Source: Agroathelia rolfsii (taxonomy: Eukaryota; Basidiomycota; Agaricomycetes; Amylocorticiales; Amylocorticiaceae). Taken from it: a stretch of DNA of 64,000 nucleotides. Of the stretch, positions 3,537-60,474 are shown piece by piece; the stretch's first letter is position 1; each line of letters opens with the position of its first letter. The stretch spans positions 4,464,001 through 4,528,000 of the forward strand of contig JABRWF010000001.1 of the NCBI GenBank assembly GCA_018343915.1. The letters are read 5' to 3'. Position numbers and translations under genes: made by a program. Below the pieces are notes generated by a model. It searched no databases and was not told the DNA's origin. It saw only the letters and a list, made by a program, of their open reading frames with translations.

Positions 3537-4643
3537 TGTTATGAGTTGGACATTTTTCGCCTTTTTCTTACGGACATGTACATAATTTTATTGTATTTTT
3601 ACGGTTTTTATTGACTGAGATATAGACGAAATACCTTGCAGGCAACATCTTGACGTGCGTGTGACTGGCTGTGTTAGCCCCACGTGACAGGAGTGCTCGT
3701 GACAAGAGTATATTAGGAAGGCGGAGTCTAGACCATTCCTTTTCATCAAAAGGTCTAGACTCAGGAACCAGGGTCGTTCCAATCACTGTGCGATTACTAA
3801 GGAGTACTAGACTCATCATTCCAATCAGTTGCTCATCGGACTTAGGAACAAAGCACTGCCCCTGCATTCTAGTCATTTCTGCTTACGAACCCCGCTGCGC
3901 ACAGACCATCAAGGCTGCGCACGGGCCCTTCATTTTATGTATAAATACAAGCTTGTAGCCCTTACCTGAACCTTAGCTTTGACCTTCTCGCCTTCAGGTA
4001 AGGGCACCCCCCCTCTTGTATACTTACATAATAACTAATATATTTCTCGCCTTCAGGCTTGTTCTCCTAGCTCCCCCTCTCTTTACCTTCTTGCCTATTT
4101 AGTATAAGGCCTCAACGGCATCTAAGTAGAATATGTAGCCCTAGTACCAGAGGGCCTCCCGAGTTATAAGTCCTCAATACAAAGAGGCATTGCACATGAT
4201 ACAAACCCTGTTCATTCAGGTAGGGGCAGTAACAAGACCCCTTAGGCGTTAGTTGTAGTATGGAGGGCTAAGCCGCCTACTCCAAGTAAGAAAGTTTTAG
4301 TAAAATCTATTTGACACAAAGAGAGCACACGGGAAGCCTTTGGCTAGAGTACCGACCGCGATCCTAGCAAAGTAGATTTGCTAGACTACTATTACGAAGG
4401 ATAGCAACGGGAGTACGTACATGCCTAGTAAAACCAAACATATACGCGTTGTAAAAGGGACCTTACAGTCCACCCTCGTACCTTTGAGAGGGTTTACGTT
4501 GTTTGGTTAAGTCAAGCGCGCAAGCCTTGACATTAGGTCGAAGCTAAACCTAAACCACTGTTGAGCCCCGCTCCAGTGTGCAGATTGATTCTCTGCCAAT
4601 TAGCACAAGCAAGAAAAAGGCGAAAAATATCCAACTCATAACA
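3537..4643 (+). mobile_element. Family A U3/U3 insertion: LTR + PBS + leader + inverted U3 tip
   Basis: A 996-bp A LTR (3537-4532) is followed by the PBS (4533-4545, TTAGGTCGAAGCT) and about 65 bp of untranslated leader that matches A1 downstream of 24790. The next bases, 4611-4643, are the reverse complement of the LTR's first 33 bp (32 of 33 identical). The unit is flanked by CTCAA at 3532-3536 and 4644-4648. Both ends are therefore U3 termini and there is no second LTR. The leader and inverted tip share AAGAAAA at the switch point. Confidence 0.9.
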
Positions 4644-5491: not shown

Positions 5492-6473
5492 TGTTATGAG
5501 TTGGAATTTTGGACTATGAATTTTTCGTTATTATTTAAACAATGTATTATATTTCGTTTCATTTTTCTTTTATTATATTACCCTCAGAGCGTGGTCTGTA
5601 GGTAGTGAGTGGTCCTATGATTGGCCCTCATGTAACTAAGCTGCATGCTACAGGAGTAATCATGAGTTGTGTGTTTCCTGTTCACCATTCCACACAACTC
5701 CGGAGTACAAACCTCCGATCACTGACCGACTTCTAACGGATACTGGTTCTGCTACATACCTCCGAGCTTCCGCTCTGGAACTCTTGAGGAGCTCCGCTCC
5801 TGAGTGCGGAGCTTCCGCAAGTGTTGTATCTCCGCACGGCTGCCTGTCGGAGTTAGGAAAAAGGTCTCCCCCTGCATATTCTACTTTTTCTATCTCTTGT
5901 CTCCGCATCGGAACTAGCGCAGAGCTTTCGTAGTAGTATAAGTAGTTGATGTAACTTGTCCTGAAAGGCCAGCTTTGACCTCTTCGCCTTTAGGCAAGTA
6001 TTTAGTGTTTGTATTCCTCTTAGAAATTACTCAATCAACTTTGCCTTCAGGGTTCTCTAACCTCCGGGCCTAGCCCCACATCTTAGCACATATAAACTCC
6101 AATTAGTAGGGTGAAATTCCCTAGACTAGTTAGTTAGATGCATGAAGTGTGATTCGGAACCTCCGGAAACTCCGCTCCCCTCCGACTTAAGTCTCCGGAG
6201 CTTTGTAAGGCATAAGCAGAGTACCCTTACCACCCTCAATAGATAAAGGGGTTTGCGTATTGTGGGAAAACTTCTGTCTTAGGTACTTTGCTAAAGGTTG
6301 GGAGGTTATTTTTGATTATCTCTGCATAGTCAAGAGTGATCCCTTGATATTAGGTCAAAGCTACCTGGATATCCCTTGGAATCTCTGCGTTCCAAGAAGG
6401 TGTGATTGGCGATCACATACAAAGAGCAGTAGATTAGTCTTTCCAAACCCGCTTCTTTTTCCAACTCATAACA
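5492..6473 (+). mobile_element. Family C U3/U3 insertion: LTR + PBS + leader + inverted U3 tip
   Basis: A complete C LTR (5492-6349, 858 bp, ending CCCTTGATA) is followed by a PBS (6350-6362, TTAGGTCAAAGCT) and about 96 bp of leader. The last 15 bp (6459-6473) are a perfect reverse complement of the LTR start TGTTATGAGTTGGAA. The perfect TSD CTTTG flanks it (5487-5491 and 6474-6478). It interrupts the copia Gag. The LTR 11-mer AGCTTTGACCT matches the PBS complement at 11 of 11. Confidence 0.9.
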
Positions 6474-14556: not shown

Positions 14557-16052
14557 TGTCATGAGAAGGGAATTTTCAATGTCAAGGGTCTACTCCTTGA
14601 CTATGTTACGTTGGGCGTGGAGAGCCTACTTGTAACACAAACAAGAAAAAAACTTTCTCAACACTAAATCTAAGTACCTAAGAAAACAGGTTTTCCCACA
14701 GATACGCAATTCCTTATCTTATTGAGGATATGCTGGGTACTCTGCCTATTCCTTACAATGCTCTTATGTATGTCACATGCTTATGAGGGGATTTACACCG
14801 CCTCCAGTAGATATAGAGAGAAAAGAAGAGAGGGAGGGGGCACTAGGAACCTGGCTCTAGGCCAAAAGAATAAACCCTGAAGGCAAAGTTTTATTAGCAA
14901 TCTATTTAAGGGAATACAAACGTCTTTTACTTGCCTGAAGGTGAAGAGGTCAAAGCTGAGCTCTTCAGGACAAGTTACATGCACTATTTATACTATTGTT
15001 AAGTTTGGACGGACGGAGGGAGTACAAAGAGGAGGCGGAGCGGAAAGGTGTGGAGGCGGAGCGGGAGTGGAGGTGGAGACGGAAAGGGTGCGGAGATGAC
15101 GGAGTGGGTAGAAAGCAACGGGTGGGTAGATGAGATAAAGGGGGAACCGGACTTGGCCAAGACGTATGTGTCAGGCCCTTGCCTAGTTGCGGTCCGGGAT
15201 AGAGGTTGGACAGGAGATGGGGAACTTAGTTGATTTCCAAACTGAGGTGCTAAGTACATCATGTATCAGTATAAATACTATAGTAGTAGCAAGACACAGA
15301 AAAGCTAGAAGATAATAGGAATAGGGGGTGGGAAATGATCATATGGTATACATCAGAGCTAAGAGTGTTCATGGGAAATAAAATAAGGAACAGGGAACAA
15401 ACAATGGGAATGCACAAAAGATAGGAACGCGTGTGAGACAATTAACTCAGTGGTTTTGATCGACTCTAAAAGGTTCGCAGGATCCGGCTTCCGGAGCTGA
15501 TGGCGGAGGGAGAGGGCGGAGCGTGGGAGGAATATGTCATGTACGTTGCGGAGGCCCCAAGGCAGAGGTGCTATTGGAGATGGCGGAAATGTACTCCCGA
15601 GAGTATTGCGGAGCGGAACGTGACAACTATTGTAGAAAGGTCCGTATGCAGCTTTAATGGTCTGTGCACAGAGGGAAATAGAAGTATAATTGTGGCAATG
15701 CAGGGGAAGATCTTTAACCCTAACTCCACCGGGCATCCGTGTGGAGATCCGTTTCCGGACCAGTACTGGTAACCATTAGGAATTGATCAGGGAAGGAAGT
15801 TTACATTCCTAGGCTGTGCGTGATGATGAAATGGAAGTACGCACAGCCCCGAGATTACTCCTGTGACGTGCAGCTTGGAAACACATGAGGGCCAATCACA
15901 TGACCACTGTACTGCCCACAGTCCATGTCCTAAAGGGTAATTTTGATAAAAATAAAAGAAAAAGGAAAGAAAATGCAATAACTAATTAAGTTTTAGTCCA
16001 AATAATACAAGAAAATAGCTGAAAAATTGGCGAAAATTCCCTTCTCATGACA
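14557..16052 (-). mobile_element. Family B U3/U3 insertion, reverse, with a G LTR inside
   Basis: Read on the minus strand, a complete B LTR (16052 to 14580, about 839 bp without G) is followed by TT and then the reverse complement of its first 21 bp (14577 to 14557). The perfect TSD TTTCA flanks it (14552-14556, 16053-16057). The TT equals the first two bases normally found after an LTR, so the switch happened as copying left the LTR. Confidence 0.9.
14997..15625 (+). repeat. G-family solo LTR, only copy in the window
   Basis: This 629-bp unit has TG...CA ends (TGTTAAGTTTGG, CGTGACA) and a perfect ACTAT TSD (14992-14996, 15626-15630). A TATAAATA box lies at 15270-15277, supporting a plus-strand LTR. 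Its start is rich in GGAGGCGGAG-like repeats. Open frames inside are short and purine-biased with no recognised product. It is the youngest layer of this nest. Confidence 0.8.
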
Positions 16053-23547: not shown

Positions 23548-24187
23548 TGTCAAGGGTATACTCCTTGACTTTGTGACATTGGGCGTGGGGTGCCTACTTG
23601 TGCACTAAATTAAACAATACACTCTTAACACTAAATACTTGAAGTACCTACGCACAAGTGTTCCCACAGATAACAGGACCTTGAATTTATTAAAGGCCTA
23701 TCCAGGTACTTTCTTATCTTATGTGTAATCAATGCTCTTATGGTTTCTCACACACACGTTTAAGGGGATTCACACCACCTCCTTGTTATGAGTTGGACAT
23801 TTTTCGCCTTTTCTTTACGAATATGTACATATTTTTATTGTATTTTTACGATTTTTATCCACTGAGATATGGACAAAATACCTTGCAGGCGACATCTTGA
23901 TGCGCGTATGACTGGCTGTGTTAGCCCCACGTGACAGGAGTGCTTGTGACAAGAGTATATTAGGAAGGCGGAGTCTAGATCATTCCTTTTCATCAAAAGG
24001 TCTAGACTCAGGAACCAGGGTCGTTCCGATCACTGTGCGATTACTAAGGAGTACTAGACTCATCATTCCAATCGGATGCTCATCGGACTTAGTCACAAAG
24101 CACTGCCCCTACATTTTACATGATCCTGCTTACGAACCCCGGCTGCACACAGACCATCAAGGCTGCGCACGGGCCCTTCATTTTATG

Positions 24188-24194
24188 TATAAAT
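24188..24194 (+). promoter_or_regulatory. TATA box of family A LTR
   Basis: TATAAAT lies 33 bp before TTAGCTTCGACCT, the sequence repeated in complement at the PBS. The distance suits a transcription start at or close to that sequence. All A copies keep this box. Confidence 0.65.
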
Positions 24195-24205
24195 ACAAGC
24201 CTGTA

Positions 24206-24253
24206 GCCCTTACCTGAACCTTAGCTTCGACCTTTTCGCCTTCAGGTAAGGGC
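24206..24253 (+). promoter_or_regulatory. Start-site hairpin of family A LTR
   Basis: A perfect 13-bp inverted repeat, GCCCTTACCTGAA (24206-24218) and TTCAGGTAAGGGC (24241-24253), encloses a 22-nt loop that contains the self-primer sequence. The 3' arm also contains the splice-donor-like CAG|GTAAGG. Families B, C and E have the same structure with changed but still pairing arms. Confidence 0.75.
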
Positions 24254-24303
24254 ACCCCCGTTTGTATCCCTATATATAACAACTAATATAATTTCGCCTT
24301 CAG
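24246..24303 (+). other. Intron-like unit in the A1 LTR (58 nt)
   Basis: Donor CAG|GTAAGG, branch-like CTAAT (24283-24287, 17 nt before the end) and acceptor GCCTTCAG. Size and spacing fit a basidiomycete intron. The exon end and the intron end share the direct repeat TTTCGCCTTCAGG, so removal would leave one copy. It is inferred from sequence only. Confidence 0.55.
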
Positions 24304-24790
24304 GCTTATCTACGTCCTAGCCCTACTACCACTCTCCCTCCTTTTTCCTCTATTTAGTGTAAGGCCTTAAGGGCATCTAAGTAGAATACGTAAGCCCTAG
24401 TACCAGAGGGCATAAGCCGAACATAAGTCCTCAATACAAGGAGGCAATTGCGCATGACAAAAACCCTGTTCATTCAGGTAGAGGCAGAAACAAGTCCTCT
24501 TAGGTGTTAGTTGTAGTACGGAGGGCTAAGCTGCCTACTCCGAGTAAGAAAACCTCGAGAATAACTATTTGACGCAAAGAGAGCACACGGGAAGCCCCTG
24601 GCTAGAGTACCAAACGTGATCCTAGCAAAGTAGGAATTCTAAGGTTACTATTACAAAGGATAGCAACAGGAGCACATACACGCCTACCAAAGACCAGACA
24701 TACATACGTGTAAAAGGGACCTTACAGTCCACCCTTGTACCTTCGAGAGGGTTACGTTGTTTGGTTAAGTCAAGAGCGTAAGCCTTGACA

Positions 24791-24803
24791 TTAGGTCGAA
24801 GCT
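24791..24803 (+). other. A1 primer-binding site (self-priming type)
   Basis: TTAGGTCGAAGCT starts at the base after the LTR. Reverse complement AGCTTCGACCTAA matches the LTR start-site sequence TTAGCTTCGACCT over 13 bases when TAA on the 3' side of the PBS is included. There is no TGG start as expected for a tRNA 3' end, which favours Tf1-style self-priming. Confidence 0.8.
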
Positions 24804-25203
24804 AAACCTAAAACCACTGTCGAGCTTCGCTCTAGTGTGCAGATTGATTCTCTGCCAATTAGCACAAGTGAAGAAAAGTTTTACATATGTTTCTTTTGTC
24901 AAATTTGTGTTGGGCTTGAACTGTTTGCGGAAGCAATTAGCTGAGATCTAATACTCAGTTTTAACCCATTCAGATTTTGGCTTGGGAGTACCTGCACGTT
25001 CCAGGGAAACCTTGTGTTGTTACCCGAAGGCGCTACTGCAGGGTTAGCCTGCTGCTTCTAGGGACACCTCTTTAGGTGTAAAACTGCCTGCCCAAACAAA
25101 TCTTTTATTTTTCTTTTATTACGCTACTAGAGGTACTCCGCTTGGTGCCTAAGTTTTGAAGAAGACAAGAGAATCCGTGTTGAGCCTTCGCTCCACAAGT
25201 TTA

Positions 25204-26708
25204 TGAGCCAATCCAGAAAAGGAAAAGCTCCTGCATAACCCGCTGCTAAGACCTCTGCCTATCCCTCCATATCTGCCCCTGCTCCCCAGGCAACCTTCTC
25301 GCAGCCTCCTAAAGTTCCTACACCACCTAAGCTTCCGTCTCCTCCCAAACCCGCTACTCCAGAAGAATCTGAAGAAGAGGAGGACGAAGACGAAGAAGAA
25401 CCCGAGGAGGAAGCTTACCCATCACCATCAGATTATCGCGAACCAGAACCAGAACCAATAGCCTCCCGTACCCGCTCCCGCATTCCCACACCAGTTGTCA
25501 CTCCTAGAATCCGCACACCTATACCTACTCCCCGTACCCACACACCTGCCATCACTCGTCCCCCCTCTCCCACCATGTCAGGCTTCGAACAGTTCATGGG
25601 TCAGATGCTGGAAATGCAGCGTCAGACCACTGAAATGATGAGGCATATGACCGAAACCCAGCAAAAGCTGGTGGAAATCGCTGATCGTCTGGCACCTGCT
25701 CCCGCTCCTGTTCCAGCACCTGCGCCTCAGGTAGTCACGGTTGCCTCAACCAAGGAAAGAGGCAAGGAGCCCTCCAAGTTCACGGGTGACCGAGAAAAAT
25801 ACAAGGATTTCATCCTAGGATTTGAGAATTATCTTGGGTTAAATCCTACCCTATATAGCTCAGACTGCGACAAGGGCAGGTTGCTTATTTCCTTGCTTGA
25901 AGGAGGCCCAAGGAGATGGTCGGAAAAATGGTCCGACATGATTAAAGCAGAAGAAGAAGGGGAAGTCAAGGCAGAGTCCCCCTTTGTCTTTAATGACTTT
26001 TACAAAGCCTTCCGGGGTCTTTACGGATCATGGGACTATAAGCGTTCCGCCCTCGACAAGCTTAAGGGCATGAAGCAGGGTTCCCGAAGTACACAGGAGT
26101 ACATTACCGATTTCTGGTCTACGGCACAACAGACTGACCTATCAGAGGAGGATTGGCGCGTGCGTTTCTTGGATGGGTTAAACCCCAAGATCCGGAATGT
26201 CCTAGGTGGTTGGGATCAAACCAACCTAGAAACGGTGTAGAAGGCCATGGATGCAGCCTTGCGTGCCGAACAGGGGCTATGATCGGCAGGTCTCTGGCAA
26301 GATACGTGGCGACCTCGGGTCCCTGTTGCTGGTTCTGCAACAAACCCCATCTTGATAAATGCAGCCCAGGTTGCTACTCCTTCCACCAGTCAACCCTCCT
26401 TCCAGGGTAGACCATCGTTCCCACCTAGGGATTGGTCGAAGGCACAATGCTTCCATTGTGGTCAACTAGGTCACCCTAAGCGTCGTTGCCCCCTTCTGGG
26501 TTACAAACCAAGACCTTTTGCGCCCCCCGGACAAGCCTCAATCTCCGCCTCTGTTCAACCTGGTCCTGCTACAACTGTTCCCGCTGTCACCGCCCCTTCG
26601 TCTTCTTCCAACCCACCAGCATATTTGGTTCCTGACCATGTAATACAGATTATGGAGGAACAGGCTGCCGCCATTGCCGCCTTAAAAGATCAGATGGGTT
26701 TTTCTTGA
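25204..26708 (+). pseudogene. A1 Gag polyprotein (three nonsense codons)
   Basis: The reading frame starts MSQSRKGKAPA at 25204. It has a Pro-rich acidic region (ESEEEEDEDEEEPEEEA), a helical segment (MGQMLEMQRQTTEMMRHMTE), a capsid-like core (KFTGDREKYKDFILGFENYL; LLISLLEGGPRRWSEKW; FRGLYGSWDYKRSALDKL) and a CX2CX4HX4C knuckle near 26448 (CFHCGQLGHPKRRC). In-frame TAA at 25237, TAG at 26238 and TGA near 26279 correspond to CAA, CAG and CGA by single C-to-T changes. The frame ends at TGA 26706-26708, overlapping pol in the -1 frame. Gag would form the particle shell and bind RNA. Confidence 0.9.
26694..26708 (+). promoter_or_regulatory. Candidate gag-pol -1 frameshift site
   Basis: Gag ends ATGGGTTTTTCTTGA. 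A U5 run directly before the stop and continuation of pol in the -1 frame suggest slippage here. It is not a textbook slippery heptamer. The B element at 37920-37931 has GGTGGGTTTTTAG with the same layout, and A2 keeps the same arrangement on the minus strand near 52250. Confidence 0.5.
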
Positions 26709-29700
26709 GGTCAGCTGAAAGGGCTATTCAGTCTGACCAATATGTTCAGAATCGTTTTTCTTCTCTATCTTCTTGTAACACTATTTCTATTTCTTCTTCT
26801 TCCTATTTTTCCCTTGCAGGTGCAAATGGACAGCACCTCAAGGTTCCCATTATGTTCCATGGACCTTTTAAGAATTTCTCTACCTTTGCCATGATTGATT
26901 CCGGTGCATCTTCTTCATTTGTAAACTATAGATACGTACAAAAACACAAAATCCCTACAAAAAAATTACCTCGCCCCATCCCACTATATAATATTGATAA
27001 CTCTGCCAATCAGATTGGGAGGATTGAATCCGTTGCCATACTTGATACCACGATTGGATCCGAACAAAAATACCTGCCATTGTGCATTGTTGATATTGGC
27101 CAAGAGGATATAATCCTTGGCATCGATTGGTTACGACTCGAAAACCCCGTGATAGACTGGAAATCCGCGGAAGTCACCTTCCTACCTGAAAGAGAATCTG
27201 CACAAGCCACTACCACCATGCCACCTGGATACGAAGATTTTGCTGATGTCTTCTCTGAAGAAGAAGCAAGTAGACTACCTAGCTACAAATCATCAGACCA
27301 TAAGATTGAGTTGCTTGATGAAACTAAGCTCAGACGAGGGCGTGTATACCCCCTCAGCAGCAATGAGACTGATGCACTCAATGAATGGATTGATGACAAC
27401 CTGGCCAAGGGGTACATTCATAAATCTGAAAGTGAATTCGCGGCTCCCATGTTCTTTGTACCCAAGAAGAATGGAAAGCTCCACCCTGTCCAGGATTACC
27501 GAGCCCTCAACGAGCAAACCGTCAAGAACACGTACCCCCTTCCCCTGATTTCTGAAATTGTGGAACATATGACTCGATTCCGCTGGTTCACAAAGATCAA
27601 CCTCCGTGCCGGGTTCAATAACATTCGTATCAGGGAAGGTGACGAGCGCGAAGCTGCCTTTATCACGTCACGAGGGCTCTTCGAACCCCTGGTTATGCCC
27701 TTTGGTCTATACAATGCTCCCTCCTCCATGCAGGCCCTAATGGATGACATCCTTCTTCGCCTAGTCCAACTAGGGTTTGTTAGGGTCTATATTGACGACG
27801 TCATCATTGGAGCTGAGACCAAAGAAAAGCTACGAGAAGTGACATGTGAAGTCCTTTCTATCCTACGAGAACATAACCTGTACGGTAACCTAGACAAGTT
27901 TGAGGTCGAAAAACCAGAAGTCAATATCCTGGGTTTCATTGTTTCTCATCGCCAAGTTTGCATGGATCCCGAAAAGGTCAAACCAATCCTTGATTGGCCA
28001 ACTCCTAAAAATGTCAAGGAGGTCCGTAAATTTCGAGGTTTAGCCAACTATTACCGACGATTCATCCGGGACTTTGGAAAGATCTACAAACCCCTGGATT
28101 GTCTTACGGGCAAGGTCGATTGGACCTGGGGTCAAGAGGAGCAGGAAAGTTTTGATAATCTCAAAAAGGCCTTCAGCACTGCTCCTGTTCTACGCTCCTA
28201 CAATCAAAAGGCCCTGACTCGAGTAGAAACAGATGCCTCCTCCTATGCCACCGGTGCAGTTCTTAGTCAGAAGGATGAATTCGGTGCCTGGCACCCTATC
28301 GCCTTCCTATCTCAATCTATGAACGATGCCGAAAGGAACTACGACATCTGGGATAAGGAGATGTTAGGGGTTATCCGCGCCCTGGATCATTGGCGTCACC
28401 TGCTTCAAGGACTTCCTGAACCATTTGAAATCTGGACAGATCACAAGAACCTGAAGTACTGGACCACAGCTCGTAACCTCACGCGTCGACAAGCTCGCTG
28501 GTCTCTTTTCCTGGCAGATTTCAACTTCCGCATTCATTATCAGAAAGAAGCTGAAAATGGCAAAGCAGATGCATTATCTCGGCGACCGGATCTTCAGGTA
28601 TTGGATGCCGAGGATAACCATGATGTGGTCTTGCTAGACCCAAAGCTATTCCGGATAAATGCTGCCCAACGAGGTCACGTCCTGATGGAAGGAGAATCTG
28701 AGCTGCTCAAGAAAATCCGGAATGCTTCCCCCAAAGCAGAGGTTGCAGAGGCGTTACAACTGGTCAAGGACTTAGGCCCTGTGAAGCTTCAGAAAGGTTT
28801 AGAAGAGTGGAATCAAGAAAATGGGATCATTCTACGACAAGGAAGGGTTTATGTACCAGCAGACAAGGAAATCCAAACACAGATTATCTCTATGTACCAT
28901 GACAGTCTGCTGAGTGGTCACCCCGGCCAATACAAAACTCTCGAATTAGTCTCACGCAATTACTGGTGGCCTGGCATGACAAAAGCAGTAAACGAATATG
29001 TAGAAACCTGCCAAATCTGCATTCAGAACAAATCCTCTCGTCTACTGGCTTTTGGCCCTCTTGAACCCCTCCCCACGCCTACACGCCCCTAGGATCACAT
29101 TACCATGGACATGATTGTTAAGCTTCCTGATTCTCAGGGTTATGACAGCATTCTGGTTATGGTAGATAGGTTTTCTAAAATGACCCATGTCATCCCCACT
29201 ACGGAGAAGATCAATGCCATCAGAACAGCTGAACTTCTGTGGTCTCATGTCTTCAAGCTCCATGGATTGCCATCCAGGATTACTTCTGATAGGGGACCCC
29301 AATTTGCAAGTAAGGTGATGCGAGAAGTACACAAGCGTATGGGAATCATCACAGCCATGTCCACCGCCTATCACCCGCAAACAGATGGACAATCTGAACG
29401 TGTCAATCAAGAACTTGAAGCATACCTGAGGTTCTTTGTATCTCACCGACAAGATGATTGGGCAAGACTACTCCCCTCTACCGAGTTCGCTTTGAATAAC
29501 TGACAACACTCCGCTACCAAGATGTCACCATTCAGAATGAACTATGGGTTTGACCCTCGTATGGATTTCTCTCTTACGGGTATCTTTGAAACACCAGCTG
29601 TAGAGGACTGGTTACACATCATAGCAGATGCACAATTGGATGCCCAAGCCGCCCTTAATCTAGCTGCAGAAAAGATGAAGGAATCTTTTGACAAGCACGT

Positions 29701-30280
29701 ACAAGAGTCACCTCAATGGCAAAAGGGCGATAAGGTCTGGTTATCCACCGAGAACCTGAAGACATCCCAGCCAACAAGGAAGCTATCTACTAGGTTCGCC
29801 GGCCCCTACGAAATCTTGGAAAGAATCGGTCCTCTTGCATATCGTCTCAAGATCCCTCGCACGTGGTCAATCCATGACGTTTTCCATGTCTCCCTTCTAA
29901 CCGGACATAAACCATCAGAACGGGATCAACCTCCACCCGAACCTGTAGAAGTAGAGGGTGAAGAAGAATGGGAAGTAGCTAAGATTAAGGATTCAAGAAT
30001 TTCAGGCAGACCGAAGCGGCTTGAATATCTTGTCAGCTGGAAGGACGCCCCAGGAGAAGACAACTGGGAACCTGCAAGTAACCTGACACATGCCAAAGCT
30101 AGGATACAAGATTTCCACAAGAAGCACCCCAATGCACCTAAACGCTTGAATGCTGCAGTCTTTGGGGAACTACCTTTTAGACCAATTGAAAATTACACGG
30201 AAACATCAACGAAGGAAAACGCAGGATGGGAACTAGGGAAGTTCCGGAGTAACTCCCTTGAGAAGGGGGTAATGTTATGA
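26702..30280 (+). pseudogene. A1 Pol polyprotein: PR, RT, RNase H, IN, chromodomain
   Basis: Counting from 26705: protease MIDSGASS (Asp near 65) and LGIDWL; RT with YIDD at 362-365 and MPFGLYNAPS; RNase H ETDASSYATGAVLS (Asp near 509); integrase zinc residues H730, H737, C767, C770. After TAG (29090, from TGG) the core follows with the D,D-35-E pattern: Asp in MDMIVKLP, TSDRGPQF, and Glu in GQSERVNQE. TGA at 29501 follows LNN. Then come GPYEIL and a chromodomain (RLEYLVSWKDAPGEDNW). RT motif A reads KINL where KIDL is expected, removing a catalytic Asp. The stop TGA is the 6th-8th base of the 3' LTR. Products would act in virus-like particles and the nucleus. Confidence 0.93.
30261..30272 (+). 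other. A1 polypurine tract
   Basis: AGAAGGGGGTAA sits directly before the 3' LTR and would prime plus-strand DNA synthesis. The equivalent in B is AGAAAGGGGGTAA at 63484-63496. Confidence 0.85.
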
Positions 30281-31279
30281 GTTGGACATTTTTCGCCTTT
30301 TCTTTACAAATATGTACATATTTTTATTGTATTTTTACGATTTTTATCCACTAAGATATGGACAAAATACCTTGCAGGTGACATCTTGACGTGCGTGTAA
30401 CTGGCTGTGTTAGCCCCACGTGACAGGAGTGCTTGTGACAAGAGTATATTAGGAAGGCGGAGTCTAGATCATTCCTTTTCATCAAAAGGTCTAGACTCAG
30501 GAACCAGGGTCGTTCCGATCACTGTGCGATTACTAAGGAGTACTAGACTCATCATTCCAATCGGATGCTCATCGGACTTAGTCACAAAGCACTGCCCCTA
30601 CATTTTACATGATCCTGCTTACGAACCCCGGCTGCGCACAGACCATCAAGGCTGCGCACGGGCCCTTCATTTTATGTATAAATACAAGCCTGTAGCCCTT
30701 ACCTGAACCTTAGCTTTGATCTTTTTGCCTTCAGGTAAGGGCACCCCCGTTTGTATCCCTATATATAACAACTAATATAATTTCGCCTTCAGGCTTATCT
30801 ACGTCCTAGCCCCACTACCACTCTCCCTCCTTTTCCCTCTATTTAGTGTAAGGCCTTAAGGGCATCTAAGTAGAATACGTAAGCCCTAGTACCAGAGGGC
30901 ATAAGCTGAACATAAGTCCTCAATACAAGGAGGCAATTGCGCATGACAAAAACCCTGTTCATTCAGGTAGAGGCAGAAACAAGTCCTCTTAGGTGTTAGT
31001 TGTAGTACGGAGGGCTAAGCCGCCTACTCCGAGTAAGAAAACCTCGAGAATAACTATTTGACGCAAAGAGAGCACACGGGAAGCCCCTGGCTAGAGTACC
31101 GAACGTAATCCTAGCAAAGTAGGAATTCTAAGGTTACTATTACAAAGGATAGCAACGGGAGCACGTACGCGCCTACCAAAGACCAGACATACATATGTGT
31201 AAAAGGGACCTTACAGTCCACCCTTGTACCTTCGAGAGGGTTACGTCGTTTGGTTAAGTCAAGAGCGTAAGCCTTGACA
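30273..31279 (+). repeat. A1 3' LTR
   Basis: It is 1,007 bp, the same length as the 5' LTR. The self-primer region here reads TTAGCTTTGATCT, two transitions from the 5' LTR. Confidence 0.95.
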
Positions 31280-40602: not shown

Positions 40603-42157
40603 TGTCATAAGAAGGGAATTTTTGGATGGTGCTTCTTCTTGACCTTCTAGTGTCTTTGGTGGCGATGCTTGTGTGGAGAGGCCTTCTTCTCCTGACTCTT
40701 CTTCTTCTTCTTCGGAAATATGTGGAGCCAAGCTCGACGCAACTTCCCTTGTGACTTCGGGTGGGGATGCAGTGGATTTAGCGGCCCAGGGGACCGGTAC
40801 TTCTTTGGGCTGGTAAGATGTGCCCTTGCGTGTGCATATTCACAGAGCTTTTGTAACGGTTTTCTTCATCACCGGCGGTCGTACCGGTTTCCAATTGGTT
40901 AGCGGGATTTTTCTTCTTCAGCTAGGGCTAGAGCTCGCCTATATAGTAATCACACAAAAAGGGTCATGCAAGATTTGAATAGCAAGGGGGGGTGGAAAAG
41001 GTGCTACTCACACTTAGCAGTAATAAACTTTAATCCCCACTAGGGACTCCTAGAATGCCAAGCTTTTTAGGCTTGTATTGCACTTTGGATACAGCCAAAG
41101 AATCAGGTAGGACGTATACCCTATCTTTGTCTAAACAGGGTTGTAAGCAGGCTTTGGAGGGCTCTGCACAATTGCTTCCTGAAGTAGTTTACCACTTACG
41201 TGCTTAGAAAGTGTTCGTAGTAAAAATATGAAATGTGCTCTTTGTGCAAGATTGCTAGTCTTGCCTTCTCAGATTGTGGAAATCCAAGGGATCTTGGTAG
41301 CTTCGACCTAATGTCAAGGGTATACTCCTTGACTATGTGACGTTGGGCTTAGGGGGCCTACTTGTGCACACAATCAAACAATACACTCTTTTCACTAAGT
41401 CTTTGAAGTACCTACAAATAAGGTTTCCCATAGATATGCAATTCCCTTATCTATTGGGGATGCGCTGGGTACTCCGTTATCTTACTTGTATTCGATGCTC
41501 TTAGTTCACGCGCACACTTTTGAGGGGATTTGCACTGCCTCCTAATATAAGGTGGGAAGGGAGAGAGGGAAAGAGAGTGGCTAGGACGATGGCCTAGGCC
41601 TATGAGTGTATACCCTGAAGGCGAAGTTTTTATTAGTAATCTATTTAATGAATACAATCCTTGGTTACTTGCCTGAAGGTGAAGAGGTCAAAGCTGAGCT
41701 CTTTAGGACAAGTTATATGCACTATTTATACTACTATAGAATAGTCCATGCGCAGCATGGATGGTCTGTGCGCAGAGGGAAATAGAAGCATAAGGGTGGC
41801 AATGTGGGGGAAGAACGTTTACCCTAACTCCACCAGGCATCCGCGTGGAGATCCGTTTCCAGACCAGTACCGGTAACTGTTAGGAATAGTTCAGGGGAAG
41901 GAAGGCTGTGTTCCTAGGCTGTGCATGATGGTGAAGTAGAAGTTCGCACAGCCCCAAGATTACTCCTGTGATGTGCGGCTTGGAACACGTGAGGGCCAAT
42001 TACATGACCACTGCACTGCCCACAGTCCACGCCCTAAAGGGTAACTTTTATAAGAAAAATAAAGAAAAGAAAAGAAAATGTAATAATTAAATAAGTGGTA
42101 GTCCAAATAATACAAGAAAATAACCGAAAAATCGGCGAAAATTCCCTTCTCATGACA
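40603..42157 (-). mobile_element. Family B U3/U3 insertion with partial gag, reverse
   Basis: Read on the minus strand: a complete B LTR (42157-41312, 846 bp), PBS (41311-41299, TTAGGTCGAAGCT), leader and the first part of gag with its Glu-rich stretch (EEEEEESGEEGLSTQ) to about 40625. It ends with an inverted copy of the LTR's first 22 bp (40624-40603, two transitions). The perfect TSD ATTGG (40598-40602, 42158-42162) proves one integration event. Confidence 0.9.
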
Positions 42158-42770
42158 ATTGGAAATGCTTCCAATGCACGGGGTATGCAGCAACTCAGAA
42201 GGGAGGGCATTGCCGGTGACTCCATTGTAGTTATTCGCGAATGTCGATGTGCACGATCGGGATGTTTGGCGGCCAGGTGCATTGGCGGGTTGTGACAATG
42301 CCCTTACCTAAAGGCAAAAAGGTCGAAGCTAAGGTTCAGGTAAGGACTACATGCTTGTATTTATACATAAATGAAAGGGCCTGTGTGCAGCCTTGATGGT
42401 CTGTATGCAGCCGGGGTTTGTAAGTAGGAATATATAATAATGCAGGGGCAGTGCTTTGCACCTAAGTCTGATGAGCAACCGATTGGAATAATAAGTCTAG
42501 TACTCCTTAGTAATTGCACAGTGATTGGAATGTCCCTGGTTCCTGAGTCTAAACCTTTTGATGAAAAGGAATGATCTAGACTCTGCCTTCCTAATATACT
42601 CTTGTCATGAGCACTCCTGTCATGTGGGGCTAACACAGCCAGTCACACATGTGTTAAGATGTTACCTGCAAGGTATTTTGTCCATAGCTCAGTCAATAAA
42701 AATCGTAAAAATACAATAAAAATATGTACATGTTCGTAAGAAAAAGGCGAAAAAGTTCCAACTCATAACA

Positions 42771-42857
42771 GTATCTCAATGAATAAAAATCGTAAAAAAT
42801 ATAATAAAAATATATACACATCCATAAGAAAAGGCAAAAATTATCCAACTCATAACA
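42771..42857 (-). repeat. A-family LTR terminal fragment
   Basis: These are the final 87 bp of a reverse A LTR (GTATCTCAATG to CTCATAACA), the right remnant of the copy into which the preceding A LTR inserted. The right flank is TCAGG. Confidence 0.75.
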
Positions 42858-43349
42858 TCAGGCTTGTTTATCCTAGCCCACACTACCCCCTCTCTTTTCC
42901 TTACTTATTAAGTATAAGGCCTCAAGGGCATCTTAGTAAGCATACAAGTAAGCCTTGTTACAAGAAGGCAGTAAGACCCTATAAAGTCCTCAATATAGGA
43001 GGCATTGCACATGAATTAAAGTCCTATTCATTTAGGCCAGGGCAGTAATAAGTCCCTATGAACATCTGTTGACTATGGTAGGCTAAGCTGCCTACTTCAA
43101 GTAAGAAGTACTAAAACTAGTATTTAACACAAAGTGAGTAATACGGGAAGACTCATGTCTAGAGTACCAATACACAAGCCTAGTAAAGTACTAAATAAGT
43201 ACCCTATTACAAAGAGGTAGTAATGGGAGTATGTAGGTGTTCATTAAATATCCAACCTAGACATACATATAAAACCCAGCCTTACAGCCTACCTCTGTAC
43301 CTTATAGGAGGTTGTGTTTGTTGGATAGTCAAGAGTGCAAGCCTTAACA
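42858..43349 (+). repeat. A-family LTR 3' fragment
   Basis: This is the plus-strand A LTR from the intron acceptor (TCAGGCTTG) to the end GCCTTAACA. The 5' part is displaced by the previous fragment. Confidence 0.75.
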
Positions 43350-57659: not shown

Positions 57660-58662
57660 TGTTATGAGTTGGACATTTTTCGCCTTTTTCTTACAAACAT
57701 GTACATATTTTTATTGTATTTTTACGATTTTTATTCATTGAGATATAGATGAAATACCTTGCAGGCAACATCTTGATGCGTGTGTGACTGGCTGTGTTAG
57801 CCCCATGTGACAGGAGTGCTTGTGACAAGAGTATATTAGGAAGGCAGAGTCTAGACCATTCCTTTTCATCAAAAGTCTAGACTCAGGAACCAGGGTCGTT
57901 CCAATCACTGTGCGATTACTAAGGAGTACTAGACTCATCACTTCAATTGGTTGCTCATCAGACTTAGTCATAAAGCACTGCCCCTGCATTTGACATAACC
58001 CTGCTTACAAACCCCGGCTGCACACAGACCATCAAGGCTGCGCACGGGCCCTTTCATTTATGTATGAATATAAGCATGTAGCCCTTACCTGAACCTTAGC
58101 TTCAACCTTCTTGCCTTCAGGTAAGGGCACCCTCATTTTGTATCCCCTTACATATACTAATATATTATCTCGCCTTCAGGCTTGTTTGCCCTAGCCCATA
58201 CTCTCTCTCTCTCTCTCTTGCCTATTTAGTGTAAGGCCTTAACGGCATCTAAGTAGTATATACAAACCCTAGTACCAGAGGGTGTAAGACCTTAAGCCCT
58301 CAATACAAGAGACACTGCATATGATCATAAAATCCTGTTCATTCAGGTAGAGGCAGTAATAAGTCCTCTCAGACATACGTAGAGCACGGTGGGCTAAGCC
58401 GCCTACTCCAAGTAAGAAACTAGATAAAACCTATTTGACATAAAGGAAGCACACGGGAAGCCTAGTGCTAGAGTACCGATCATGACCATAACAAAGTAGG
58501 AGTTAGCTAGTACTATTACAAAGGATAGCAACGGGAGCACATGCATGTCTGCCTTAAAAACCAACCTAGTAACACGTAGTAAAAAGGGGTCTTACAACCC
58601 ATCCCTTGTACCTTACAGGGGGTTTACGTTTGTTAGTTACGTCAAGCATGCAAGCCTTGACA
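57660..58662 (+). repeat. A-family solo LTR
   Basis: This 1,003-bp LTR has flanks TTTCG (57655-57659) and TTTTG (58663-58667), one CpG-type transition apart. A (CT)n run lies near 58200-58218. Confidence 0.88.
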
Positions 58663-60474
58663 TTTTGATGAAAAGGAATGATCTAGACTCCGCCTTTCTA
58701 ATATACTCTTGTCACAAGCACTCCTGTTACGTGGGGCTAACACAGCCAGTCACACACGCATCAAGATGTTGCCTACAAGGTATTTCATCCATAACTTGGT
58801 TAAATAAAATCGTAAAAATACAATAAAAATATGTATATGTCCGTAAGGAAAATGCGAAAAATGTCCAACTTATAACACGATCGGAATGATGAGTCTAGTA
58901 CTCCTTAGTAATCACATAGTGATTGGAACAACCCTGGTTCCTAAGTCTAGATCCTTTGATGAAAAAGAATAGTCTAGACTCCGCCTTCCTAATATACTCT
59001 TGTCACAAGCGCTCCTGTCACGTGGGGCTAACACAGCCAGTCACACGCACAACAAGACATTGCCTGCAAGGTATTTCTTTCATATCTCAGTCAATAAAAA
59101 TCGTAAAAATACAATAAAAATATGTACATGTCCGTAAAGAAAAGGCGAAAAATATCCAACTCATAACAGAAGGGACTAGAGGAATGGAATGAGGAGAACA
59201 GCCTAATTTTACACCTCAGCAAAGTCTACATACTATACGACACCCCACTTCACAACAACATCATCGGACTCCACCATGATGTATCAGCAGCCGGTCACCC
59301 AGGATGGCACAAGACTCTAGAATTGGTCTCAAGAAACTATTGGTGGCCTGGCCTTACAAAAGCAGTCAATGACTATGTAGCCTCATGTCCCAACTGCCTC
59401 GCCTCCAAGACAGCCCAATCCATGCCCGTAGGACCTCTAGCACCTTTACCAACCCCTGAAAGACCTTGGGAACATGTTACTTCTGATATGATTGTCAAGC
59501 TCCCAGAATCCCAGGGGTTTGATTCTATCTTGGTAGTAGTAGACAGGCTGACAAAAATGTGTCACCTAATCCCTTGTGTAGAAGCAATCACAGCATTAGA
59601 AATGGCGGATTTATACTTGGCACATATCTTCCAGCTGCACGGCCTACCCCATCAGTGGACATTAGATTGAGGGCCCCAATTTGCAGGGAAAGTTATGAGA
59701 GAAATCCATAAGTGGTTAGATATCAAGACCTCCCTGTCCACTGCCTACCATCCACAATCCAATGGCCAGACCAAACGCCTTAATCAGGAAGTGGAAGTTT
59801 ATCTCCAAAACTACATTTCCCACTGGCAAGACAACTAGGTGGGCCTCCTCCCCCTTGCCAAATTCATGCTCAATAACTGACAGCAAGCATCAACAGGTGC
59901 TTCTCCATTTGAAATGAACTATGGATTCTCCCCATGTATAAACCTTACAACTGCCAGAATCCCAAGTACAGAAGGGGCACAAGTATAGACCAAAAAAGTT
60001 AAAGAGCTCCAGGAGGATGCAAAAGCAGCCCTAGACCATGTGGCCAGCCAAATGAAATATTTCTTTGACAAACATGCTATGTGTCATGAGTTGGAAAATA
60101 TGGACAGAATTTTTGCAAATTATTTAATTTTTATTGGAACTATTTTTATGAATTTTTGTCTCCTTTTATCTTTTTCTTTTATTACCCTTAGGGTGTGGAC
60201 TGTAGGCAGTGAATGGTCAGGTGATTGGCCCTCATGTGACTAAGCCGCACGCTACAGGAGTAATCATGAGTTGTGCGTTTCCTGTTCACCATTCCGCACA
60301 ACTCCGGAGTACAAACCTCCAACCACTGACCAATTCCTAACAGATACTGGTTCTGCTACACACCTCCAAGCTTCCGCTCCCAAGCTCCTGCGGAGCTCTG
60401 CTCCTGAGCGCGGAACCTCCGGAAGTGTTGTATCTCTGCACGGCTGCCCGTCGGAGTTAGGGAAAAGGTCTTCC

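Follow-up and report, generated by a model that had tools for sequence, protein, structure and literature searches.

The insertion at positions 3537-4643 of the window, the 64,000-nt stretch of DNA analysed here (C1:4464001-4528000; 44% GC; from a genome of 37.67 Mb in 8 contigs), consists of the LTR of a Tf1/sushi-type chromovirus, followed by leader and by the inverted U3 tip of the same LTR. U3 forms both ends of this and of every other complete insertion of the kind (6/6), in place of the normal one U3 and one U5, and all six are flanked by a perfect 5-bp host duplication (TSD); four lie in the window and two on contig C8. On balance, we take these insertions to be aberrant cDNAs from self-primed Tf1/sushi-type chromoviruses that became integrated after a plus strand had switched to a short U3-terminal strand. 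The features are collected in Table 1.

Table 1. Parts of the first U3/U3 insertion, further insertions of the same layout, and the normal reference element (window positions unless a contig or locus is named)
Feature	Position	Strand	Remarks
Left TSD CTCAA	3532..3536	.	Case 1
Family A LTR, TG...CA	3537..4532	+	Case 1; 996 bp
TT spacer and PBS AGGTCGAAGCT	4533..4545	+	Case 1
Leader	4546..4619	+	Case 1; final 9 nt (4611-4619), AAGAAAAAG, common to the inverted arm
Inverted U3 tip (first 33 bp of the LTR)	4611..4643	-	Case 1; 32/33
Right TSD CTCAA	4644..4648	.	Case 1
Family B U3/U3 insertion	5492..6473	+	Case 2; TSD CTTTG; LTR 858 bp, leader 109 nt (114 including the homology TTCCA), arm 15 bp
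Family C U3/U3 insertion	14557..16052	-	Case 3; TSD TTTCA; LTR (nested insertion inside), TT, arm 21 bp; junction exactly at LTR+TT
Family C U3/U3 insertion	40603..42157	-	Case 4; TSD ATTGG; LTR 846 bp, leader/gag 689 nt, arm 20 bp with 1 mismatch
Family A U3/U3 insertion, contig C8	L031:1501-2539		Case 5; TSD TACTG; arm 26 bp
U3/U3 insertion L035	C8:2995402-2996676		Case 6; TSD TTTCT; arm 21 bp
Partial U3/U3 insertion L033	C1:988857		Case 7; junction seen, far end not reached
Normal full-length family A reference element	23784..31279	+	TSD CTCCT

Case 1 extends from a TG at 3537 to a final A at 4643, between two perfect copies of the host duplication, and its inverted arm differs from the start of the LTR by a single mismatch; leader and arm together measure 111 nt. 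The original prediction had given the coordinates, the TSD and the arm of this insertion exactly, and the three further U3/U3 insertions that it placed in the window, in families B and C, each carry a perfect 5-bp TSD. It had also proposed AAGAAAA as the homology at the junction. That word is indeed shared, but comparison with the closest normal copy (L025) gives a slightly longer overlap of 9 bp, AAGAAAAAG. The family A LTR has at least 84 matches in the genome (40 scored of 593 candidates).

The window is densely filled with nested LTR elements. At 58653-59168, next to a complete plus-strand LTR, the minus strand carries two LTR-start fragments (225 and 289 bp) in head-to-tail order, and at 42299-43349 an LTR start of about 87 bp on the minus strand has a second minus-strand LTR start on one side and a fragment of a plus-strand LTR on the other, apparently the result of multiple nested insertion. 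Elsewhere on the same contig (L040:1240-1780; C1:1000539-1001079), two near-identical stretches with tRNA-like sequence, GGCAAGATAGCTCAGTTGGTAGAGCACC..., recognised by eye, adjoin an interrupted chromovirus pol and are possibly a tRNA-derived SINE or a tandem duplication. Nesting also affects two insertions outside the window. Case 5 is located inside the pol gene of another element, and the LTR of case 7 is interrupted by an A element which is itself interrupted. The insertion of about 2.6 kb inside this A element (C1:989777-992419; L033, L038) has a 195-bp repeat (93% alike) at its bounds and contains a roughly 1-kb repeat frequent in the window.

The genome was searched with sequence patterns, which favour short arms and near-consensus tips, and the genome-wide counts of U3/U3 insertions are lower bounds. 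A general tip pattern had 669 exact matches, compared with 8 for its control. The pattern of an LTR end with an inverted tip joined to it at a distance of up to about 60 nt was matched three times, by case 3, by L031, and by L030, the last without a U3/U3 pair. A pattern for family C tips which depart early from the normal LTR had four matches, namely L034 (by visual inspection a normal solo LTR), L033, and both ends of L035. Patterns with longer leaders recovered cases 1 and 2 only, and one further pattern had 14 matches, of which the two inside the window are case 2 and the start of a normal LTR.

The reference element has the order LTR, gag, protease/RT/RNase H/integrase zinc-binding, SH3_Tf2-1, chromodomain, PPT (GAGAAGGGGGTAA), LTR. 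Its open stretches contain the RVT_1, RNase H, Integrase_H2C2, SH3_Tf2-1 and Chromo domains of a chromodomain Ty3/gypsy pol; their domain matches did not include the integrase core. Three of the at least 120 protein relatives carry an organism name, in each case that of a mushroom (Lyophyllum twice, Moniliophthora once), which suggests a basidiomycete as the likely host. With the Tf1/sushi chromoviruses (Tf1, Tf2, Tj1), the element shares SH3_Tf2-1 together with a chromodomain at the 3' end of pol, a PPT adjoining U3, and a PBS complementary to the predicted 5' end of the mRNA, the self-primed Tf1-type layout described in extracts of PMC4600332 and PMC10085805. The PBS, AGGTYRAAGCT, starts two bases (TT) beyond the LTR end and its partner, AGCTTYRACCT, lies within the LTR. 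In case 1, AGGTCGAAGCT is complementary at 11/11 positions (G-T taken as a pair) to the LTR word AGCTTTGACCT, which sits 35 nt past the start of the TATA box. Among 24 LTR ends followed by TTAGG, with G-T counted and the primer word sought with up to 2 mismatches, the pairing was 11/11 in 17 and 10/11 in 3; it was 6/11 in L031, whose PBS is cut by the junction, and the primer word had no match in the LTR of 3 of the 24. The word begins 34-35 nt past the start of the TATA box in 17 of the 21 matching copies, and the other four, from family B and one further family, had no TATA box (by the word used) at that spacing. This layout points to a self-primer at the predicted 5' end of the mRNA. A tRNA primer was rejected, the PBS pairing with the element's own predicted 5' end. 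Rfam and tRNA scans of the window returned no matches. A purine-rich tract is present upstream of 22 of 107 tips and ends in AA before the TG in 21 of these 22; the remaining tips include those of 5' and solo LTRs.

Because self-primer and PBS pair over 11 nt, with a spacer of 2 nt, the minus strand is predicted to begin at LTR+TT, and plus-strand strong-stop DNA is predicted to end at the same position after removal of the primer. It is at LTR+TT that the inverted tip is joined in case 3 (family C) and in L031 (family A), the latter with three ambiguous bases owing to a shared AGG.

The overlaps between leader and arm, read by eye against normal copies, are 9 bp in case 1, 5 bp in case 2 (TTCCA), none in case 3, 4 bp in case 4 (CGAA, dependent on accepting a later CG-to-CA change), 3 bp in L031 (AGG) and 6 bp in L035 (AAAAAT), and a computed recheck confirmed those of 9 and 5. 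In L033, whose own LTR start is not known, the overlap is 5 or 6 bp. Microhomology of 4-9 bp is therefore found at the five junctions outside LTR+TT, one of them conditional on the later base change. Random breakpoints in normal leaders and in the insertions' own tips give a mean overlap of about 0.7 bp, and the summed overlap of the six complete cases, 27 bp, was reached in none of 20000 random draws. The longest available homology was not necessarily chosen: L035 used its 6 shared bases, and the longest word common to the leader near its junction and the first 45 LTR bases has 8 bases and lies elsewhere.

The leader ends anywhere from 2 to 689 nt past the LTR, and the arms are uniformly short (15-33 bp in 6/6). 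Six-base matches of the leader to the terminal 40 LTR bases number 13 in case 1, 7 in case 2 and 4 in L035, compared with 214, 205 and 224, respectively, to the rest of the inverted LTR. If homology alone had chosen the site, most arms would be far longer; their shortness, with most of the homology lying further in, indicates that the acceptor was probably short, or exposed at its end alone. The scans of the window, in which arm length was limited only by half the span, and of C1:380001-580000 carry no bias on this point, although the short arms of L031 and L035 may reflect the way in which these copies were searched for. The junctions of L033 and L035 occupy the same site, 422 nt past the LTR end. 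The two leaders share 76% identity; that of L033 shares 84% with L021, and that of L035 shares 84% with L024 (over 342 nt), L021 and L024 both being uninterrupted at this site. Since each leader resembles an uninterrupted copy more than it resembles the other, the comparison indicates two independent switches at one site.

We infer from these sequences the following course, including its timing, its priming and the forms of cDNA involved. The donor would be a plus-strand 3' end, belonging either to strong-stop DNA finished at LTR+TT or to a strand extended into the leader (by up to 689 nt), and it would switch to the terminal 15-33 nt of a plus strand initiated at U3. In our opinion, this acceptor was either a brief restart or a 5' flap that had been displaced, arising from repeated priming at the PPT. 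Copying of the acceptor to its 5' end would create a second U3 end that is exact; after completion of the complementary strand, integrase would treat both U3 ends as an ordinary pair and insert them with a 5-bp TSD. Repeated priming by the PPT has been proposed for Ty3 and Ty1; there, the second strong-stop strand would end at U5, and a third would displace it (PMC5371799, section 2.2). For the LTR+TT cases, such dead-end plus-strand strong-stop DNA would provide displaced strands that run from a 5' end at U3 to a 3' end at U5; in Ty3/Ty1 it is a cDNA intermediate, and the cited section reports no integrated U3/U3 product. By analogy with Ty3/Ty1, PPT recycling in the self-primed elements would supply both partners, i.e., the displaced strand ending at LTR+TT and the short U3-initiated strands or flaps. 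Counting against the plus-strand switch are the lack of microhomology in case 3, the longer shared word that L035 left unused, and the small number of complete cases (six); in addition, the homology of case 4 is conditional, and two of the six come from searches biased toward short arms or LTR ends. The template switch had been part of the original prediction, and its core stands: two-U3-ended molecules, mostly joined at short homology and normally integrated, are found in three families, at sites with an uninterrupted relative in 5/6 (see below), and elsewhere in the genome, where the pattern searches added the two TSD-flanked copies on C8. Two of its elements need revision, in that a short U3-terminal strand or flap, and not any part of an LTR, probably served as the acceptor, and that two junctions, located at LTR+TT, need no homology.

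The main rival is a switch in the reverse direction, which would leave the same sequence. Here, a nascent plus-strand tip of 15-33 nt would leave the PPT region, anneal to the leader (as RNA or as plus strand) and prime a minus strand whose beginning would be the U3 tip, after which ordinary first-strand transfer and PPT priming would finish the molecule. The short arms would be explained directly, the same junctions and microhomology are expected, and at LTR+TT the tip would occupy the usual position of the 3' end of the self-primer. By our reasoning, however, the LTR+TT junction of case 3 would require priming without base pairing and the left end would need another step to become blunt, and we consider this course unlikely. 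A further step toward a duplex blunt at both ends is needed whichever way the switch went.

We regard as distinctly improbable, and as fitting less well than the plus-strand switch, a trans-integration in which integrase paired the U3 ends of two cDNAs and the product was trimmed and closed by microhomology-mediated end joining, the remainder on one side being cut down to the 15-33 bp protected by integrase. The TSDs, the short arms and the microhomology would fit such a process. However, it should also yield U5/U5 products, internally truncated LTRs and inner pieces of any length, and no U5/U5 pair with a TSD was found in the 264 kb scanned (the window and C1:380001-580000), two junctions end at LTR+TT, and the complete LTR end is kept in 6/6 with a leader of at most 689 nt (L031 having been found by a pattern anchored at the LTR end, which allowed no other outcome for this copy).

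That chance or an assembly artefact has brought together nested inverted LTRs whose flanks match by accident is very improbable, even in so densely nested a window. For inverted tip pairs within 9.5 kb, with identical 5-bp flanks required, 4 of the 86 pairs in the window carry matching flanks where 0.084 are expected. The normal U3/U5 insertions with a TSD in the window comprise 10 solo-sized and 3 longer ones, against 0 in six shifted registers together. In C1:380001-580000, read separately as twenty 10-kb regions, the corresponding numbers are 18 and 8, against 2; none of its 34 inverted tip pairs has a TSD despite these 26 normal insertions, which counts against the plus-strand switch. The share of U3/U3 among TSD-flanked insertions is 4/17 in the window and 0/26 in C1:380001-580000. 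The statistics rest on the tip requirement, since in scans made without it some shifted registers matched the true one in their number of pairs: one found 6 pairs in the true register versus 5, 0, 2, 4 and 0, and a second found 5 versus 0 to 12. Two TGG...CCA pairs (about 10 kb apart) in the first of these scans and one L027 pair in the second were dropped, their ends not being LTR tips. When 90 bp of each flank were joined with a single copy of the TSD, the joined flanks matched an uninterrupted relative across the site at five of the six insertions; for case 2, where another repeat starts about 23 bp from the right end, there was no spanning relative. An artefact of nested insertion was rejected on the tip-pair statistics together with these empty sites.

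It is scarcely credible, even with the layout recurring in three families, that a non-autonomous family replicates in U3/U3 form, given that searches with the junctions of cases 2, 4 and 6/7 (up to 3 mismatches) returned known copies only, that exact gapped patterns for the remaining junctions returned no further copy, and that among the A copies listed (40 of 593 candidates scored) none other crosses the A junction. The junction searches revealed no amplified copies, only the one site reused independently, and so give no sign of a replicating class.

Normal Tf1/sushi members end in U3 on one side and in U5 on the other, whereas the copies described here have U3 at both, stop in or before the early coding region, and consequently lack a 3' LTR. 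Solo LTRs are alike in their size of about 1 kb and their 5-bp TSD, but end in U5 (CTTGACA), where these copies run past U5 and end in inverted U3. Palindromic aberrant retroviral cDNA arises when a strand switches to complementary DNA over a short homology, and is known from unintegrated circles, not from TSD-flanked genomic copies with a minimal arm; the switch at short homology is common to both, and the TSDs and the minimal arm distinguish the present copies. DIRS-type elements with inverted LTRs employ a tyrosine recombinase and make no TSD, and are excluded by the 5-bp TSDs and by the integrase zinc-binding domain of the parent element. A TIR DNA transposon or MITE would form an amplified family with common ends and interior, and is excluded because the junction searches returned no further copies apart from the one independently reused site. 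A TRIM, with two direct terminal repeats, is excluded by the single LTR and inverted arm. The original prediction had pointed to no named element class with this layout, and among the literature matches listed (titles and beginnings of abstracts, most subscription journals being outside the coverage), there were no U3/U3 insertions.

We expect that annotation may score U3/U3 copies as truncated elements or as solo LTRs. Tentatively, we suggest that, in self-primed chromoviruses, the recycling of plus strands at the PPT may regularly generate them as a by-product when displaced strands snap onto restarted U3 tips. If this is true, they would constitute a third class of integrated LTR product beside full elements and solo LTRs, as well as a sequence record of plus-strand pause sites. 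Direct observation of plus-strand transfer, a step in the reverse transcription of LTR retrotransposons, is difficult. If the copies are what they seem, genomes record failed plus-strand transfers, the junctions would report the 3' end of the plus strand, the length of the acceptor and the homology used, and concerted integration in vivo can make do with an identical pair of LTR ends.
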